From contig CAJXSI010000012.1 of assembly GCA_913061155.1 (NCBI GenBank), positions 1-34,723 of the forward strand: DNA of 34,723 nt, written 5' to 3'. Made by a program: the position numbers and the translations under genes. Source of the DNA: an uncultured Alphaproteobacteria bacterium (GTDB taxonomy: Bacteria > Pseudomonadota > Alphaproteobacteria > UBA7879 > VGCX01). Positions within the stretch are counted from its first letter, which is position 1; every line of letters begins with the position of its first letter. The notes under the pieces are model-generated. The model saw nothing but the letters and a program-made list of their open reading frames with translations. It made no database searches and was not told the origin of the DNA. Positions 8,344 to 34,457 of this stretch are shown one piece after another.

Positions 8344-8442
8344 CTAAGAAAGCACATTATAGGCAATTTGGGCCTCACTATTCCCCTGATCTGCTGCTTT
8401 TTTATAATATTCACGGGCTTGATCCGGAATCCACAGCGGTGT
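8344..8442 (-). pseudogene. Sel1-like repeat protein, C-terminal fragment
   Basis: Reading the minus strand to the TAG at 8344 gives a tail with AREYYKKAADQGNSEAQ, a near-perfect Sel1/TPR-like repeat unit followed by a short C-terminus. Upstream the frame passes straight into an intergenic palindrome (GATCCGGAAT) and meets a stop near 8442. The recognisable part is 8344-8418. Sel1 proteins are common in host-associated Proteobacteria. The gene seems to have been cut by repeat insertion or deletion; the rest of it is not in the window. Confidence 0.65.
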
Positions 8443-8483
8443 TTACCGGATTATGGTACGATTTCTGGAGACCTATTTTACTT

Positions 8484-8510
8484 CGTCATCCCGGACTTGA
8501 TCCGGGATCC
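8484..8510. repeat. CCGGG-arm TTGA-core palindrome
   Basis: CGTCATCCCGGACTTGATCC continues into GGGATCC: arms ATCCCGGA and TCCGGGAT close the core CTTGA. It lies in the 0.9-kb gene-free stretch between secG and rpmE, which consists mostly of such elements, the Sel1 remnant and short unique linkers. Confidence 0.85.
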
Positions 8511-8534
8511 ACACACCAACTGCCTCCTCTCACT

Positions 8535-8689
8535 TTGTCATTCCGGACTTGATCCGGAATCCACAGCGGTGTTCATCACAGAGAATTTGATTGCCGTAGA
8601 CTTCTGGATTCTGGTGTCAAGCACCAGAATGACAAAAATTGTATCCGGTGAATACGGCCCTGGACCCCGCATCAAGTGCGGGGCGACGA
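8535..8689. repeat. 155-bp composite repeat, copy 1
   Basis: Order of parts: a palindrome with CCGGA arms, a 41-base spacer starting ACAGCGGTGTTCATCACAGA, a palindrome with arms TTCTGGTG/CACCAGAA around TCAAG, a short linker (AAAAATTGTATCCGGTGAAT), and a palindrome with CCCCGCA arms around TCAAG. The whole block recurs 227 bases to the right with a single mismatch that I can find. No coding potential is supported; the open frame across it is a by-product of the repeat. Confidence 0.9.
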
Positions 8690-8761
8690 GGTAAAATAGT
8701 CAACGAATTTGTGAACCTATACACGGGGCGACGATTTCTATGTAAAGACAGCCCCTCTTCA

Positions 8762-8916
8762 TTGTCATTCCGGACTTGATCCGGAATCCACAGCGGTGTT
8801 CATCACAGAGAATTTGATTGCCGTAGACTTCTGGATTCTGGTGTCAAGCACCAGAATGACAAAAATTGTATCCGGTGAATATGGCCCTGGACCCCGCATC
8901 AAGTGCGGGGCGACGA
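8762..8916. repeat. 155-bp composite repeat, copy 2
   Basis: Near-identical to 8535-8689 in the same orientation, with one base change in the AATACGG/AATATGG linker. Such high identity between two tandem copies points to recent duplication or gene conversion. The 70 bases between the copies contain ACACGGGGCGACGA and TTTCTATG.AAAGACAG, which recur inverted near 14.35-14.40 kb. Confidence 0.9.
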
Positions 8917-8977
8917 AGTTGGGAGGCTATCATAAGCTTAATGACAAATGATTATACCCCGGTGATTTTATACGTAT

Positions 8978-9055
8978 CGTCATTCCGGACTTGATCCGGA
9001 ATCCAGTCATAATCTAAACGGCAGGCAGGTTATATCTGGTGACTCTACCGCCCTG
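8978..9055. repeat. composite repeat of the AGTCATAA-spacer type, decayed copy
   Basis: A CCGGA-arm palindrome (8981-9004) is followed by AGTCATAATCTAAACGGCAG and a decayed second half (CCCTGGGTCAATGGGGCC). The same spacer occurs at 33669-33770 and, inverted, at 14258-14358. Confidence 0.75.
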
Positions 9056-20646: not shown

Positions 20647-21243
20647 ATGAAAATTAAACATAAAAAACCAAAAACATTCAGGGATAAGTTTGCTTATGCT
20701 TTGGTTAAATTCATGCGTATTTTTGCTGATGCTTTCTTTCGAAAACGATATGGCCACCGGGCTGTTGTTTTGGAAACTGTTGCGGCCGTCCCGGGGATGG
20801 TTGGGGCCGGCTTAATTCACTTTAAATGCTTGCGTCGTATCCAAGATGATAAAGGTTGGATCCATGAATTATTGGAAGAGGCCGATAACGAACGTATGCA
20901 CCTTATGACTTTTATTAAAGTTGCCCACCCTTCGTTTTTGGAACGTTTACTGATTGTCGCAGCGCAATTCTTTTTCATTATTTTTTATACTTTGATGTAT
21001 ATATTATCTGCAAAAACAGCTCATCGTTTTGTTGGTTATTTAGAAGAAGAGGCTGTTCATAGCTATACCGAATATTTAAAAGAAATTGATGCAGGGCGAT
21101 TGCTTAATGAACCTGCCCCAGAAATTGCCATTAAATATTGGAAGCTTAACAAGGACGCAACATTAAGGGATGTTGTTTTAATTGTTCGCGAAGACGAAGC
21201 CCTGCACCGGGATGTGAACCATAAATTTGCTGATGAATTATAA
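20647..21243 (+). CDS. aox: alternative oxidase (ubiquinol oxidase, AOX family)
   Basis: 198 residues, short like bacterial AOX. All four di-iron ligand motifs are present: Glu43 in VLET, Glu82 and His85 in [15 protein letters not shown] (133-140), and Glu184 and His187 in [12 protein letters not shown]. Hydrophobic helices at about 46-58 and 103-120 fit the monotopic membrane attachment of the family. AOX oxidises ubiquinol and reduces O2 to water without proton pumping, giving a respiration branch that resists cyanide and nitric oxide. The mitochondrial enzyme is thought to descend from alphaproteobacterial AOX. A second, truncated AOX tail occurs at 22891-22939. Confidence 0.93.
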
Positions 21244-21271: not shown

Positions 21272-22030
21272 TCAATGGTTTTTTGTTGCGGCCTTTTGTT
21301 TGAAAATAAATACAAGCAGGAAAATGGCAGAAATTAAAACCAATGACGCCGTATAACGATTTAATGCCAACCCACCGTGATCAGTTGGTTTGTCCAAGAA
21401 ATCGCCTACAACAGCACCTAAAGGGCGCGTTAGAATAAAGGCAGCCCAAAAAAGAAAAGTACGAGAAATCGCAGTTGTAAAATAAAAGACGACCAAGACA
21501 AGTAATAACCCGCCAAATATCCCTGCTGAGAAAAGGTATCCTAATGAAGCTGTGTCCGCTGTCCAATCCCCAACTGCCGTCCCAAGTGTTTGGGAAAACA
21601 TGATGGTTACCCAATAAAAAACTTCGGATTTTGTTGATATAACAGAACGGATTGAGATACTGCCGGTGGCTTGATACCAAGTAAATAAAGAAAGTAATAA
21701 TAAAATTAAAATAACAGAAGATCCACCCGTATAGCCAATGTTAAGGGATCTATCTGCAAAATCAGCAAAAGTTGTTCCAACAGTTGTTGAGGCGATAATT
21801 GTTATCCAATAAATCCCAGGGTGAAATTTGGGGCTTTTTATTTGTGCGATGACGGCAAGAACAAAGATCGCCAAAAAAATTGCGCTGCCGACCAGATACC
21901 CTAGTTTCATAGACATTGAAACAGCGTCTCCGCCTGTTTCGCCTAAGGTTGTGGCAAATATTTTTATAATCCAAAATACCAGAGTGACCTCTGGGACCTT
22001 GCTTAGTCCTTTTTTAGTTTTTTGATTCAT
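21272..22030 (-). CDS. COG4705-type multi-pass membrane protein with internal repeats
   Basis: 252 residues, about eight membrane helices. A motif recurs four times: ATTLGETGGDAVS, STTVGTTFADFAD, SQTLGTAVGDWTAD and TRPLGAVVGDFLD. This fourfold T-LG---GD pattern is characteristic of the uncharacterised COG4705 membrane proteins and points to internal duplication, with the Asp residues likely placed inside the membrane fold. Function is not established; a transport or ion-binding role is only a guess. It converges on the alternative oxidase (28 bases between stops) and has a long, AT-rich upstream region ending in the first tRNA-Glu fragment. Confidence 0.75.
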   Translation of the reverse strand: MNQKTKKGLSKVPEVTLVFWIIKIFATTLGETGGDAVSMSMKLGYLVGSAIFLAIFVLAVIAQIKSPKFHPGIYWITIIASTTVGTTFADFADRSLNIGYTGGSSVILILLLLSLFTWYQATGSISIRSVISTKSEVFYWVTIMFSQTLGTAVGDWTADTASLGYLFSAGIFGGLLLVLVVFYFTTAISRTFLFWAAFILTRPLGAVVGDFLDKPTDHGGLALNRYTASLVLISAIFLLVFIFKQKAATKNH

Positions 22031-22102
22031 TGTAATTCTCCCCCTGTTTTTTATAATTTAACATAAAAAGACAAAAGAAATTACTTTTTTGAAAATTTGA
22101 AA

Positions 22103-22142
22103 TAAAAAATTATAAATGGTGTCCCCTACGGGAGTCGAACCC
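22103..22142. repeat. left 40-bp direct repeat containing tRNA-Glu 3' end (fragment 1)
   Basis: Perfect match to 22824-22863. Its right 26 bases (22117-22142) equal the minus-strand tRNA-Glu 3' end including CCA and most of the T-arm; its left 14 bases (TAAAAAATTATAAA) are not tRNA sequence and are shared only between these two repeats, not with the complete tRNA. It touches the stop codon of the PIN-domain gene without a gap. The pattern is that of an attachment-site pair left by tRNA-targeted integration. Confidence 0.85.
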
Positions 22143-22811
22143 TTAATTGAGTAAAGTAAGCATATCTATAAATTCCTCAGGAGTTTTCAGAACAGGATAT
22201 TCAAGTTTTTCATTTTTTTTCAAGAGTCCTTTATCCCAAGTTAAAAAATAACCATGTCCTTTCCATGTTTCAGTGGATTGGTAAATATGAGTTAAGTCTT
22301 TTTCCATATTTTTGAATTTAGAATTGCCTTTGTTTTCATTAATAAATTTATCTGTTTTTTCTTTCTGGTTATATTCGCGAACACTAAAAAAATAGTGCAT
22401 TTTATCGTTTCTTTTATTATTTCCAATTTCATCTGTAACTGAGGATGGTTCAGTAAGAATTATAATTTTTGCGTTGCTTAAGGCTTTGAGCCATTCATAG
22501 TGATCTTTCTTACTTTTATCCAAAATAACATTACTATCAATTACTATCGGTATAGGAAGTTTTTCCCCTGGGTTAAAATAGAATATTCTTAAATTTTTTG
22601 CAGCAGATATGACCTTCGCATACTCTAGGGCTTCCCAGGGATAAAATTCCTGATTATTCCTAGCTGATATTTCATTTATGTAGTTATGGGGCCATTCTTT
22701 TAAAGGCTCAATGACGCCGTTCTTGTTTATTAGATCAACGTGCGTTATGTAAGTTTGGTTTAATTGGTTATCTAATTGATCTTTAGTATAAATTACTACT
22801 GCTTTTTGCAT
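22143..22811 (-). CDS. PIN-domain protein, orphan, bracketed by tRNA-Glu-derived repeats
   Basis: 222 residues. The C-terminal half (about 86-215) has the PIN nuclease layout: a strand ending in IVIDSNVILD (Asp92), an acidic residue in SVTDEIG (Glu128), and GYFLTWDKGLLKK (Asp193) before a final helix (TPEEFIDML). PIN proteins are Mg2+-dependent ribonucleases, many of them VapC toxins that cut tRNA or rRNA. The first 85 residues are an extension I do not recognise, longer than in VapC. No small antitoxin gene lies beside it. It is AT-rich, ends exactly at a tRNA-Glu fragment and starts 13 bases before the other repeat, so it is probably the cargo of a small integrated element. PIN assignment is by motif only. 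Confidence 0.6.
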   Translation of the reverse strand: MQKAVVIYTKDQLDNQLNQTYITHVDLINKNGVIEPLKEWPHNYINEISARNNQEFYPWEALEYAKVISAAKNLRIFYFNPGEKLPIPIVIDSNVILDKSKKDHYEWLKALSNAKIIILTEPSSVTDEIGNNKRNDKMHYFFSVREYNQKEKTDKFINENKGNSKFKNMEKDLTHIYQSTETWKGHGYFLTWDKGLLKKNEKLEYPVLKTPEEFIDMLTLLN

Positions 22812-22823
22812 TTTTTCTATTCT

Positions 22824-22863
22824 TAAAAAATTATAAATGGTGTCCCCTACGGGAGTCGAACCC
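22824..22863. repeat. right 40-bp direct repeat containing tRNA-Glu 3' end
   Basis: Identical to 22103-22142, in direct orientation, 721 bases apart. Here the tRNA match continues to the right beyond the repeat. Confidence 0.85.
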
Positions 22864-22890
22864 GTGTTACCGCCTTGAGAAGGCGGTGTC
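22838..22890 (-). pseudogene. tRNA-Glu fragment 2 (3' part only)
   Basis: 53 bases identical to 24096-24148 of the complete tRNA-Glu: the CCA end, T-arm, variable region and full anticodon arm with TTC. The D-arm and 5' acceptor strand are absent; the sequence changes abruptly at 22891. It cannot fold into a tRNA and marks an old integration or deletion boundary. Confidence 0.9.
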
Positions 22891-22939
22891 TTGCACCAGG
22901 GATGGGGATGTGAACCATAAATTTGCCGATAGTCTTTAA
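22891..22939 (+). pseudogene. fragment of a second alternative oxidase gene (3' tail)
   Basis: TTGCACC, a 7-base insertion, then GGGATGTGAACCATAAATTT and GC match 21209-21230 of the intact AOX gene perfectly over 22 bases; the frame reads [10 protein letters not shown] and a TAA, against [10 protein letters not shown] in the intact gene. The last codons differ, so this is a remnant of a separate AOX copy and not a recent slip duplicate. It is fused on its left to tRNA-Glu fragment 2, and its stop codon overlaps that of the convergent lipoprotein gene. Confidence 0.8.
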
Positions 22940-23553
22940 GTGACGCTATGTAATCCGTCGCGAATATACAAAGATCCTATTTCAACAAGTTGGCGGATTG
23001 CTTCTACAGCGGCAGCTTGCGCACCTTTTTCTCCCGAACATCCCATAGAGTCATTACAGCCTTTCCCACTTACTTTGAATTCTTTTTGAAATTGCAGGCC
23101 AGATTTTCCAAAAGAAGACACAATAGCATTCAAATCTATTGTTGTTTCAATATTGCTTGTAAAGAACCCTGGGTTAACACTAAACCCAGACGCAGCATTT
23201 CCTTGAAGAATACTTATTTGTGCGTTGTAGCCCTTGTCATTTAATTCTTGTTTTGTTAATACACGATCATAAAAAGTTATATTTTCAAGAGAATTTTCTA
23301 ATAAGCTTTTCATGGATTTTTTATAAGAAGAATTTAAATCAATTTTATGTTTCCAAGCGGAGCAGGCAAATCCTTTTGCTTTAGATTTCAACACCCATCC
23401 CCCAGTTTGAATATAAGCCGCATAATTCCCTTTTATTTTTTTCAAGCCAACCGGCGTGCTTACGTCTACATTGTGGACATTTATAGTAGATGTGCAATTA
23501 CTAAGAAGGGCAAATAGAATACATAAACATAAATTTTTTAGGGGACTAGTCAT
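22936..23553 (-). CDS. lipoprotein of unknown function
   Basis: 205 residues with a type II signal peptide: hydrophobic LCLCILFALLSNC, lipobox LLSNC with the lipidated Cys at about residue 19. The mature part is a mixed alpha/beta domain with two cysteine-containing segments (GFACSAW; GKGCNDSMGCSGEKGAQ) that could form disulfides, and a helix AAAVEAIRQLVEIG near the end. I do not recognise the family. Its start overlaps the end of the SlyB-like gene by 8 bases, so the pair is surely one operon and may act together in the outer membrane. Its stop overlaps the AOX remnant, so its final residues may be a product of the rearrangement. Confidence 0.7.
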   Translation of the reverse strand: MTSPLKNLCLCILFALLSNCTSTINVHNVDVSTPVGLKKIKGNYAAYIQTGGWVLKSKAKGFACSAWKHKIDLNSSYKKSMKSLLENSLENITFYDRVLTKQELNDKGYNAQISILQGNAASGFSVNPGFFTSNIETTIDLNAIVSSFGKSGLQFQKEFKVSGKGCNDSMGCSGEKGAQAAAVEAIRQLVEIGSLYIRDGLHSVT

Positions 23554-24073
23554 TTATTTTAATTCCTTTAGGTCTTTTTATTTCAGTTGGTAAATCTTCG
23601 GCAGGAAGCACCCTTTGGAACCCACCTGTATTCTGCACAATAACACGTGAGTTAACAGGTAAGGGGGTTTCTTTTTTAGGGAGTTCTTGGACAGCGGTTA
23701 TAACAACGCCATTTTCCAAGACAACAGTATATTCAACACCTTCACGGTCAGAAAACCCTTGTTCAATTAAATAACCGATTATGCCACCCGCAACTGCACC
23801 TATGCCTACAGCCCAAGCAGTTCCTGAATTTCCGCCAACATATGAACCGCCTCCTGCACCCGCAGCCCCGACAACACCAGCAGTAATACCACTATTTTTT
23901 CCAATAATTCCAATTGAACGGGATTTTATAATTGTTCCAAAGGTAACTGCAGTTGTTTTTCCAACCTCATCATAATTATAAATATCTCTACCTGGCCGCT
24001 TGCAGCTTGTAATATTTAAAGAAATAAATAAAACAGTTAAAATTTTTAATTTAGAAAATATATGTTTTTTCAT
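23546..24073 (-). CDS. SlyB/PcP-like outer-membrane lipoprotein (17-kDa antigen family)
   Basis: 175 residues. Signal peptide with lipobox ITSC (Cys at about 24), then a glycine-zipper membrane domain (GITAGVVGAAGAGGGSYVGG and AVGIGAVAGGIIGYLIEQG, about 62-108), then the soluble part with EYTVVLENG and V-SRVIVQNTGGFQRVLP. This is the SlyB/PcP architecture, related to the Rickettsia 17-kDa surface antigen. SlyB forms oligomers that stabilise outer-membrane proteins under envelope stress in enterics; that role here is inference. The start lies 22 bases after the tRNA-Glu 3' end in the same direction, so transcription may run from the tRNA promoter. Confidence 0.87.
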   Translation of the reverse strand: MKKHIFSKLKILTVLFISLNITSCKRPGRDIYNYDEVGKTTAVTFGTIIKSRSIGIIGKNSGITAGVVGAAGAGGGSYVGGNSGTAWAVGIGAVAGGIIGYLIEQGFSDREGVEYTVVLENGVVITAVQELPKKETPLPVNSRVIVQNTGGFQRVLPAEDLPTEIKRPKGIKIND

Positions 24074-24095: not shown

Positions 24096-24171
24096 TGGTG
24101 TCCCCTACGGGAGTCGAACCCGTGTTACCGCCTTGAGAAGGCGGTGTCCTAGGCCACTAGACGAAGGGGAC
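24096..24171 (-). tRNA. tRNA-Glu (anticodon TTC), complete
   Basis: 76 bases including an encoded CCA. Acceptor GTCCCCT pairs with AGGGGAC; the anticodon stem CCGCC/GGCGG carries the loop with TTC; the T-arm is ACGGGTTCGACTCCCGT. Two partial copies of its 3' end lie at 22117-22142 and 22838-22890, both downstream in the tRNA's direction. Confidence 0.97.
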
Positions 24172-33668: not shown

Positions 33669-33770
33669 GTCGTCCCGGACTTGATCCGGGATCCAGTCAT
33701 AACCTAAAAGGCAGGCGGATTGTATACGGTGAGTATTTCTCTGGACCCCGCATCAAGTGCGGGGCGACGA
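33669..33770. repeat. composite repeat of the AGTCATAA-spacer type, intact copy
   Basis: GTCGTCCCGGACTTGATCC opens a CCGGG-arm palindrome, followed by AGTCATAACCTAAAAGGCAG, a TATACGGTGAGTATTTCTCT linker and a CCCCGCA-arm palindrome (TCAAG core). Inverted partner at 14258-14358. The 98 bases before it, after gloB, hold nothing I can identify. Confidence 0.87.
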
Positions 33771-33786
33771 AGTTGGAGGAGGCCGA

Positions 33787-33981
33787 TGGCGCATGGATCA
33801 CCGTGCACCCTGTTGATGCTCGCGATGACGGAACAAGGGGTTGGGTAAGGATACTTCTTGGTTTGCCGTCATCCCACGGATTGACCGTGGGGCCCAAGCT
33901 ACCTTAGACATCTTTCTTCATTGTCATTCCGGACTTGATCCGGAATCCACAGCGGTGTTCATCACAGAGAACTTGATTGCC
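33787..33981. repeat. 195-bp direct repeat, copy 1
   Basis: Matches 34182-34376 with about three mismatches. It contains GGATCACCGTGCACCC, a palindrome CCCACGG/CCGTGGG with core ATTGA (33873-33891) and the start of the GTGTTCATCACAGA-type composite. Open frames across it are chance products of the repeat. Confidence 0.88.
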
Positions 33982-34019
33982 GTAGACTTCTGGATTCTGG
34001 TGCCAAGCACCAGAATGAC
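33922..34019. repeat. composite repeat of the GTGTTCATCACAGA type, third intact copy
   Basis: Same order as the first 100 bases of 8535-8689: CCGGA palindrome, spacer, TTCTGGTG palindrome. The core here is CCAAG in place of TCAAG (one change). Confidence 0.87.
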
Positions 34020-34065
34020 GGGGTTTGGAGGGCTATCATAATCTTAATGACATACGTATCGTCGT

Positions 34066-34084
34066 CCTGGTAGTTGATACCAGG
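34066..34084. repeat. CCTGGTA-arm palindrome with GTTGA core
   Basis: Perfect 7-bp arms CCTGGTA/TACCAGG around GTTGA, flanked by CGTCGT and GCCC as in the other types. Confidence 0.85.
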
Positions 34085-34139
34085 GCCCAGCCTAGCGCTA
34101 ACCAGGTACACAGAGGTTGCCAGCTATACCGTTACTGGG

Positions 34140-34158
34140 CCCCGCATCAAGTGCGGGG
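34140..34158. repeat. CCCCGCA-arm palindrome with TCAAG core
   Basis: Perfect 7-bp arms CCCCGCA/TGCGGGG; flanked on the right by CGACGA, the complement of the TCGTCG seen left of other types. Confidence 0.87.
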
Positions 34159-34181
34159 CGACGAGGTTGGAAAGTGTCAAG

Positions 34182-34376
34182 TGGCGTATGGATCACCGTG
34201 CACCCTGTTGATGCTCGCGATGACGGAACAAGGGGTTGGGTAAGGATACTTCTTGGTTTGCCGTCATCCCACGGATTGACCGTGGGGCCCAAGCTACCTT
34301 AGACATCTTTCTTCATTGTCATTCCGGACTTGATCCGGAATCCACAGCGGTGTTCATCACAGACAATTTGATTGCC
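34182..34376. repeat. 195-bp direct repeat, copy 2
   Basis: Second copy of 33787-33981, offset 395 bases. Its composite module is cut after GATTGCC at 34376, where unique sequence begins. Confidence 0.88.
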
Positions 34377-34457
34377 AACAACACATGGATTTGTTTGGGG
34401 TAAGATTATAACTTTTATCAGCTCCCCTTAAAACATATGATTTAAAAACTGGTGCAT

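Follow-up and report, generated by a model that had tools for sequence, protein, structure and literature searches.

In this study, we characterized a 721-bp unit carrying a single PIN-domain gene in a window of 34,723 nucleotides (the whole stretch of DNA analysed, contig C12 of a 1.26-Mb genome). Our analyses suggested that the unit is the cargo of a tRNA-targeted insertion and that two short foreign pieces were added in tandem at a tRNA-Glu(CTC) gene, a reading to which we assign a probability of roughly 0.78. It would represent a clean and very small case of gene gain at a tRNA gene. No new mobile system is revealed by the tRNA-Glu inserts, and inserts of such size and gene content escape island finders such as Islander by design.

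Three copies of the tRNA-Glu(CTC) end

A repeat search placed two 40-bp direct repeats on the minus strand, one at 22824..22863 on the tRNA side of the PIN gene and the other at 22103..22142 on its far side. As the initial annotation had reported, they are identical, with a spacing of 721 bp. Thirty simulated sequences with matching neighbour-base composition had longest exact repeats of 14-18 bp, so the 40-bp pair is not due to chance. Read on the minus strand, each repeat consists of the last 26 nt of tRNA-Glu(CTC), including the terminal CCA, and then 14 AT-rich flanking bases, a composition already recognized in that annotation. What it had overlooked is that this exact pair belongs to a three-copy series with an intact tRNA at its head.

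Two tRNA-Glu(CTC) genes were called in the window by ARAGORN, at 22838-22909 and 24096-24171, and only the second is whole. This intact gene (copy A, 24096..24171, minus strand; ARAGORN and sequence), the putative insertion target, stands 1.26 kb away. Copy B (22838..22890, minus strand; ARAGORN and sequence comparison) is the last 53 nt of tRNA-Glu, from the anticodon arm to CCA, and matches A exactly, while copy C (22117..22142, minus strand; sequence comparison) comprises the last 26 nt, from the T arm to CCA. All three copies share one orientation, with exact repeats of 40, 53 and 26 bp; the series runs A, orf175 and orf205, B, PIN gene, C, DUF347 gene, and its genes are all co-directional with the tRNA. 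The DUF347 gene, recognized by Pfam, encodes a membrane protein and lies downstream of copy C (21272..22030, minus strand). Copies B and C are thus 3' fragments in the tRNA's own orientation, downstream of the intact gene; the breakpoint of B falls just before the anticodon arm and that of C at the T arm. Copy A has a flank unlike those of B and C. A functional tRNA at 22838-22909 was ruled out, since the 5' part of this call is not tRNA-Glu sequence and only the last 53 nt are common to 24096-24171; the 5' part belongs to the remnant of an alternative-oxidase (AOX) gene tail.

Elsewhere in the window, intergenic repeats of one dispersed family (CGGACTTGATCCGGAATCCACAG and its variants) form two clusters, at 8414-9015 and 33719-34391, 25 kb apart, with exact copies of up to 176 bp.

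The PIN gene as probable cargo

Between the 40-bp repeats lies exactly one gene (22143..22811, minus strand, 222 codons), identified from the ORF list, Pfam, alignment and a structure model. Its start codon stands 26 nt past the tRNA end and its stop codon touches the far repeat with 0 nt after it, an abutment that had been noticed from the outset. The GC content of the gene is 30%, compared with 36-44% in the 15 other window genes computed and 40% in the window, while its GC per codon position (0.40, 0.25 and 0.26) is that of an ORF that looks coding. The setting of the gene suggests foreign, horizontally acquired cargo, and the low GC points the same way.

The absence of a recombinase from the unit, claimed in the initial annotation, was confirmed and extends further: none is encoded inside the 721 bp or elsewhere in the window, which also holds no integrase debris, and the three tyrosine recombinases of the genome lie on contigs C2 and C42. 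Likewise, no free-standing antitoxin-like partner was found beside the PIN gene among ORFs of at least 30 aa at 21980-22960, in agreement with what had been stated. Eight such ORFs occur there; three are the PIN gene and its annotated neighbours, four overlap PIN or DUF347 coding sequence in other frames, and one overlaps orf205. The adjacent antitoxin gene that defines VapBC is therefore missing from this locus.

Proposed tandem insertion at tRNA-Glu(CTC)

According to the Islander report, the action of an integrase that targets tRNA genes results in a whole tRNA gene together with a displaced, co-oriented 3' fragment, and the crossovers fall into two classes, represented by 2083 anticodon-centred islands and 1836 in the T-stem region (PMC4383910). 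The window displays the same geometry, an intact tRNA with downstream 3' fragments in its orientation, and the same breakpoints, copy B starting just before the anticodon arm and copy C in the T-stem region. tRNA-Glu(CTC) has accordingly probably served as the integration site for two small integrase-less inserts. One insertion, with its crossover in the T-arm/acceptor region, would have brought in the PIN gene and turned copy C into the displaced tRNA end; another, with its crossover in the anticodon arm, would account for copy B and for the arrival of orf175 and orf205. Each insert would supply a new tRNA 3' end, so that a single intact tRNA survives at 24096-24171, and the integrase would have been supplied in trans or since deleted. 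We infer site-specific recombination as the cause, together with the order of events, from the scar alone, as no insert-free strain was found. A search for relatives of the PIN gene in 93 other genomes, among which there is no close strain, found none, and the surroundings of tRNA-Glu and AOX show no conserved gene order in the relatives compared.

The putative second insert and the alternative-oxidase remnant

The second insert starts with orf175 (23546..24073, minus strand; ORF list, Pfam and PHROGs), a glycine-rich protein with a lipoprotein-like start, whose ATG follows tRNA copy A by 22 nt. It matches a phage family of unknown function, phrog_13877 (E 5e-10), and for this reason the insert may be phage-derived. 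The second gene, orf205 (22936..23553, minus strand; ORF list and relatives search), encodes a lipoprotein-like protein. Among 37 other genomes a single one held a relative of it, with 23% identity and a 3.5-kb locus devoid of tRNA, so the pair is not generally shared.

Local alignment also detected a remnant of the 3' end of an alternative-oxidase gene (R, 22891..22938, plus strand), which abuts copy B. The intact AOX gene, the 3' end of which R resembles, lies at 20647..21243 on the plus strand (Pfam and local alignment), and its product is closest to oxidases of Pelagibacteraceae, other Alphaproteobacteria and some further Proteobacteria. R aligned with the AOX 3' end at a score of 55, whereas none of about 1000 random segments of the window scored above 38; the alignment has a 7-base gap, within which lies a 6-bp tandem repeat. 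It has the orientation of AOX and is fused without spacer to the truncated copy B, and a short similar stretch is common to the tRNA and AOX sequences at this junction. Such a remnant is not expected of a clean insertion; R would either have been carried in by the orf175-orf205 insert or have arisen through a local rearrangement.

The duplicated AOX tail, its spacer-free contact with copy B in unchanged orientation and the shared stretch at the junction are what one would look for if the tRNA end and the AOX tail had been duplicated locally, by illegitimate or RecA-dependent events, and the whole array had arisen in this way without an integrase. We regard such an origin as unlikely, because the gene content changes from unit to unit and A is followed by another flank than B and C, so that no simple tandem duplication gives this order, and because both breakpoints fall in the regions usual for integrases. 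A tandem duplication spanning the AOX tail to the tRNA was also weighed, as copy B abuts R, and was ruled out since the intervening genes and flanks differ.

Possible expression of the inserted genes

A promoter scan placed a promoter-like site within the 40-bp repeat upstream of the PIN gene (22830..22859, minus strand), with 10 of 12 matches and a perfect TATAAT, and the same TATAAT site recurs in the other repeat copy, upstream of DUF347. The region holds 10 promoter-like sites, against 7.5 expected from shuffles, and we take the site as a hint only of a candidate repeat-borne promoter for the PIN gene. Read-through from tRNA A into orf175 is plausible, given that merely 22 nt separate the tRNA from the start codon. 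One may extend the insertion reading further, to a tRNA-Glu that acts as an integron-like platform, attachment site and promoter at once: one- or two-gene cassettes would be inserted head first and co-directionally, their start codons 22-26 nt past the end of the tRNA, moved by a recombinase in trans and expressed by tRNA read-through or from the repeat's TATAAT. We consider this extension improbable.

Other tRNA genes and an element at tRNA-Lys

The genome also contains what appears to be an integrative element with its own integrase at tRNA-Lys, which is an internal precedent for the tRNA-Glu copies. On contig C42 (L125, 1187-1252), 66 bp repeat the tRNA-Lys sequence exactly, starting in the anticodon arm and running past CCA into 16 nt of flank, and a tyrosine integrase gene (L125, 2-1045), which runs off the contig end, starts about 140 bp from this copy (Pfam Phage_integrase, E 2.9e-20, plus Arm-DNA-bind_3). 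A gene for a small helix-turn-helix protein near the intact tRNA-Lys (HTH_17, below cut-off) is possibly the other end of the element. Since the C42 integrase sits at tRNA-Lys, it does not readily suggest itself as the enzyme that moved the PIN unit.

Other tRNA genes of the genome were surveyed with a T-arm pattern, the 47 matches of which (27 and 20, some overlapping) gave 30 loci; 26 of these were scanned by ARAGORN, a set from which the three copies in the window and an overlapping duplicate were excluded. At five of the 26 there was no tRNA at the match, and none of the 21 genes at the others had a 3'-end copy within its own 2-3 kb locus. Three of the 17 matches without a locus, those on C42, were followed. 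No 3' copy of this kind was found at the eight tRNA-Glu loci inspected, which comprise those of relatives and the other tRNA-Glu of the window's genome.

As a sub-case of the insertion reading, the 721-bp unit could equally be the leftover of a larger element rather than a mobile cassette: an integrase-bearing phage, satellite or island would have entered tRNA-Glu, deletions would have left the cargo and the att repeats, and the unit would never have moved as such. The integrase-bearing element at tRNA-Lys of the same genome is in keeping with this history, and decay also leaves single-copy inserts devoid of a recombinase. On the other hand, the repeats are undamaged, exactly one gene with 26 nt before it and 0 nt after it is not an outcome that random deletion specially produces, and integrase debris is absent from the window. 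We put the chance of this history at somewhat below even.

Fold of the PIN protein

The 222-aa protein consists of an N-terminal domain of about 85 residues followed by a PIN domain at about 86-220. Its Pfam match to PIN_4 (PF13638; E 0.0096, 16.7 bits) lies below the gathering cut-off of 21.9, and a PDB sequence search returned no PIN chain. Alignment of four full-length proteins, which leaves out the relatives L131 and L132, showed D92, E128, D172 and D193 to be invariant in 4/4. The first, second and fourth of these residues had been proposed as the acidic cluster of a PIN fold; D172 is to be added. A structure model built from the four-sequence alignment had a mean pLDDT of 66 and a pTM of 0.65, whereas a single-sequence AlphaFold model (pLDDT 34) was set aside.

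Comparison of the alignment-based model by VIA-align gave VapC of R. felis as the top match (Z 9.0, rmsd 3.1, 108 residues), with VapC in all of the first eight rows; 14 of 1000 chains reached Z of at least 8, a level near which the score may reflect a common arrangement, and model residues of about 82-220 were aligned to the PIN structures. Foldseek returned nothing at E ≤ 0.001, while PIN structures hold five of its first seven ranks (2fe1, 1v8o twice, 1v8p and 4mj7), counting the PAE proteins, which we take to be PIN proteins. The uniform PIN list in VIA-align and the invariant acidic residues led us to accept the fold, which the model and alignment support. The protein most probably works on its own as a metal-dependent RNase, with no antitoxin gene as its partner, the RNase activity being predicted from the fold.

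Relatives of the PIN protein

The first relative, L119 in genome G536 (E 1e-4), emerged when 385 genomes of the class were searched. A two-sequence profile then recovered L127 and L128 among 42 genomes that belong to the same order as G536 (3/42 with a match), and a four-sequence profile recovered L131 and L132 in the 385 genomes of the class, where four genomes matched including the window's own. L131, in genome G565, is a PIN-family relative broken by an in-frame stop. Across 398 genomes of the phylum, the two-row profile matched the window itself and gave one weak, chance-like match only, L123. Further weak matches, L120 and L121, came from the search of the 385 class genomes. Four of seven matches at E 0.01-0.1 were inspected (L078, L079, L080 and L084, with L081-L083 outside the inspection); they are sugar-transport ATPase-like and penicillin-binding-protein-like, and were taken as chance. 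Relatives were absent from plasmids (also queried with the L119 protein), phages, viral contigs, genome contigs, NCBIfam and PHROGs, and a non-exhaustive literature search found nothing on the family. The family appears rare, has an N-terminal domain of its own and is named in none of the libraries searched. This domain, of about 70-95 residues, is common to L127, L128 and L119 and has no significant Pfam match. No obvious partner ORF down to 50-60 aa was seen at L119, L127 and L132; at L128, a 90-aa ORF lies immediately downstream.

These relatives bear directly on a further possibility, that tRNA cleavage or phage defence is the task of the PIN enzyme, with its location in tRNA-derived sequence as part of the mechanism. 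Its fold is common to VapC toxins, some of which cut tRNA. By contrast, ARAGORN found a tRNA gene at 0/5 relative loci (L124 and L133-L136; 19.0, 19.0, 16.0, 7.2 and 18.0 kb read), short-range scans at three of the five gave imperfect or short repeats only, and the PADLOC search had no significant match (best E 0.12). The initial annotation had suggested that a tRNA-cutting role might explain the location; it proposed to check whether homologues also lie between tRNA 3' repeats and counted homologues in ordinary operons without them against its reading, and the latter is largely what the five loci display. With no relative near a tRNA gene, the family does not seem to be tied to tRNA ends and the link in the window looks incidental; we consider a functional link very improbable.

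Comparison with known systems

VapC and PIN_4 proteins have the PIN core and the four acidic residues in common with the window protein, which is unlike them in its extra N-terminal domain of about 85 residues, its lack of an antitoxin gene and its score below the Pfam cut-off. As for the DNA, Islander-type islands likewise combine a tRNA gene with a displaced 3' fragment in the same orientation and a crossover at the anticodon or T-stem (PMC4383910). Islander demands an integrase and at least 2 kb in the same account, and both units here would fail (PMC4383910); the PIN unit, with 721 bp, one gene and no tyrosine recombinase on C12, falls outside this definition of an autonomous island.

The microcin H47 island also has direct-repeat flanks and no recombination genes of its own, and is moved by functions in trans, as shown experimentally (PMC3191183). 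It differs in its size of 13 kb and in its extensive imperfect repeats, which its abstract does not call tRNA-derived (PMC3191183); its mobility was shown by experiment, whereas that of the PIN unit is hypothetical.

The closest parallel is offered by additive flexible genomic islands, which grow through gene cassettes added at tRNA genes (PMC7771536, PMC10872708, PMC4119200). The fGI-2 of Methylophilaceae ranges from 330 bp to 42 kb and from 1 to 63 CDS, and its repeats are made up of 20 nt of tRNA-Lys (PMC10872708); the additive islands of Actinomarinales occur also at tRNA-Glu (PMC7771536); and in Alteromonas a conserved tRNA is the target of cassette insertion (PMC4119200). Those islands were demonstrated by strain comparison, while the PIN unit is known from one genome, and the PIN repeat, compared with theirs, reaches 14 nt beyond the tRNA. 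The initial annotation had found no described system to match the unit; one-gene inserts delimited by tRNA-end repeats are, on the evidence of these accounts, already in print, and the PIN unit is a very small further example.
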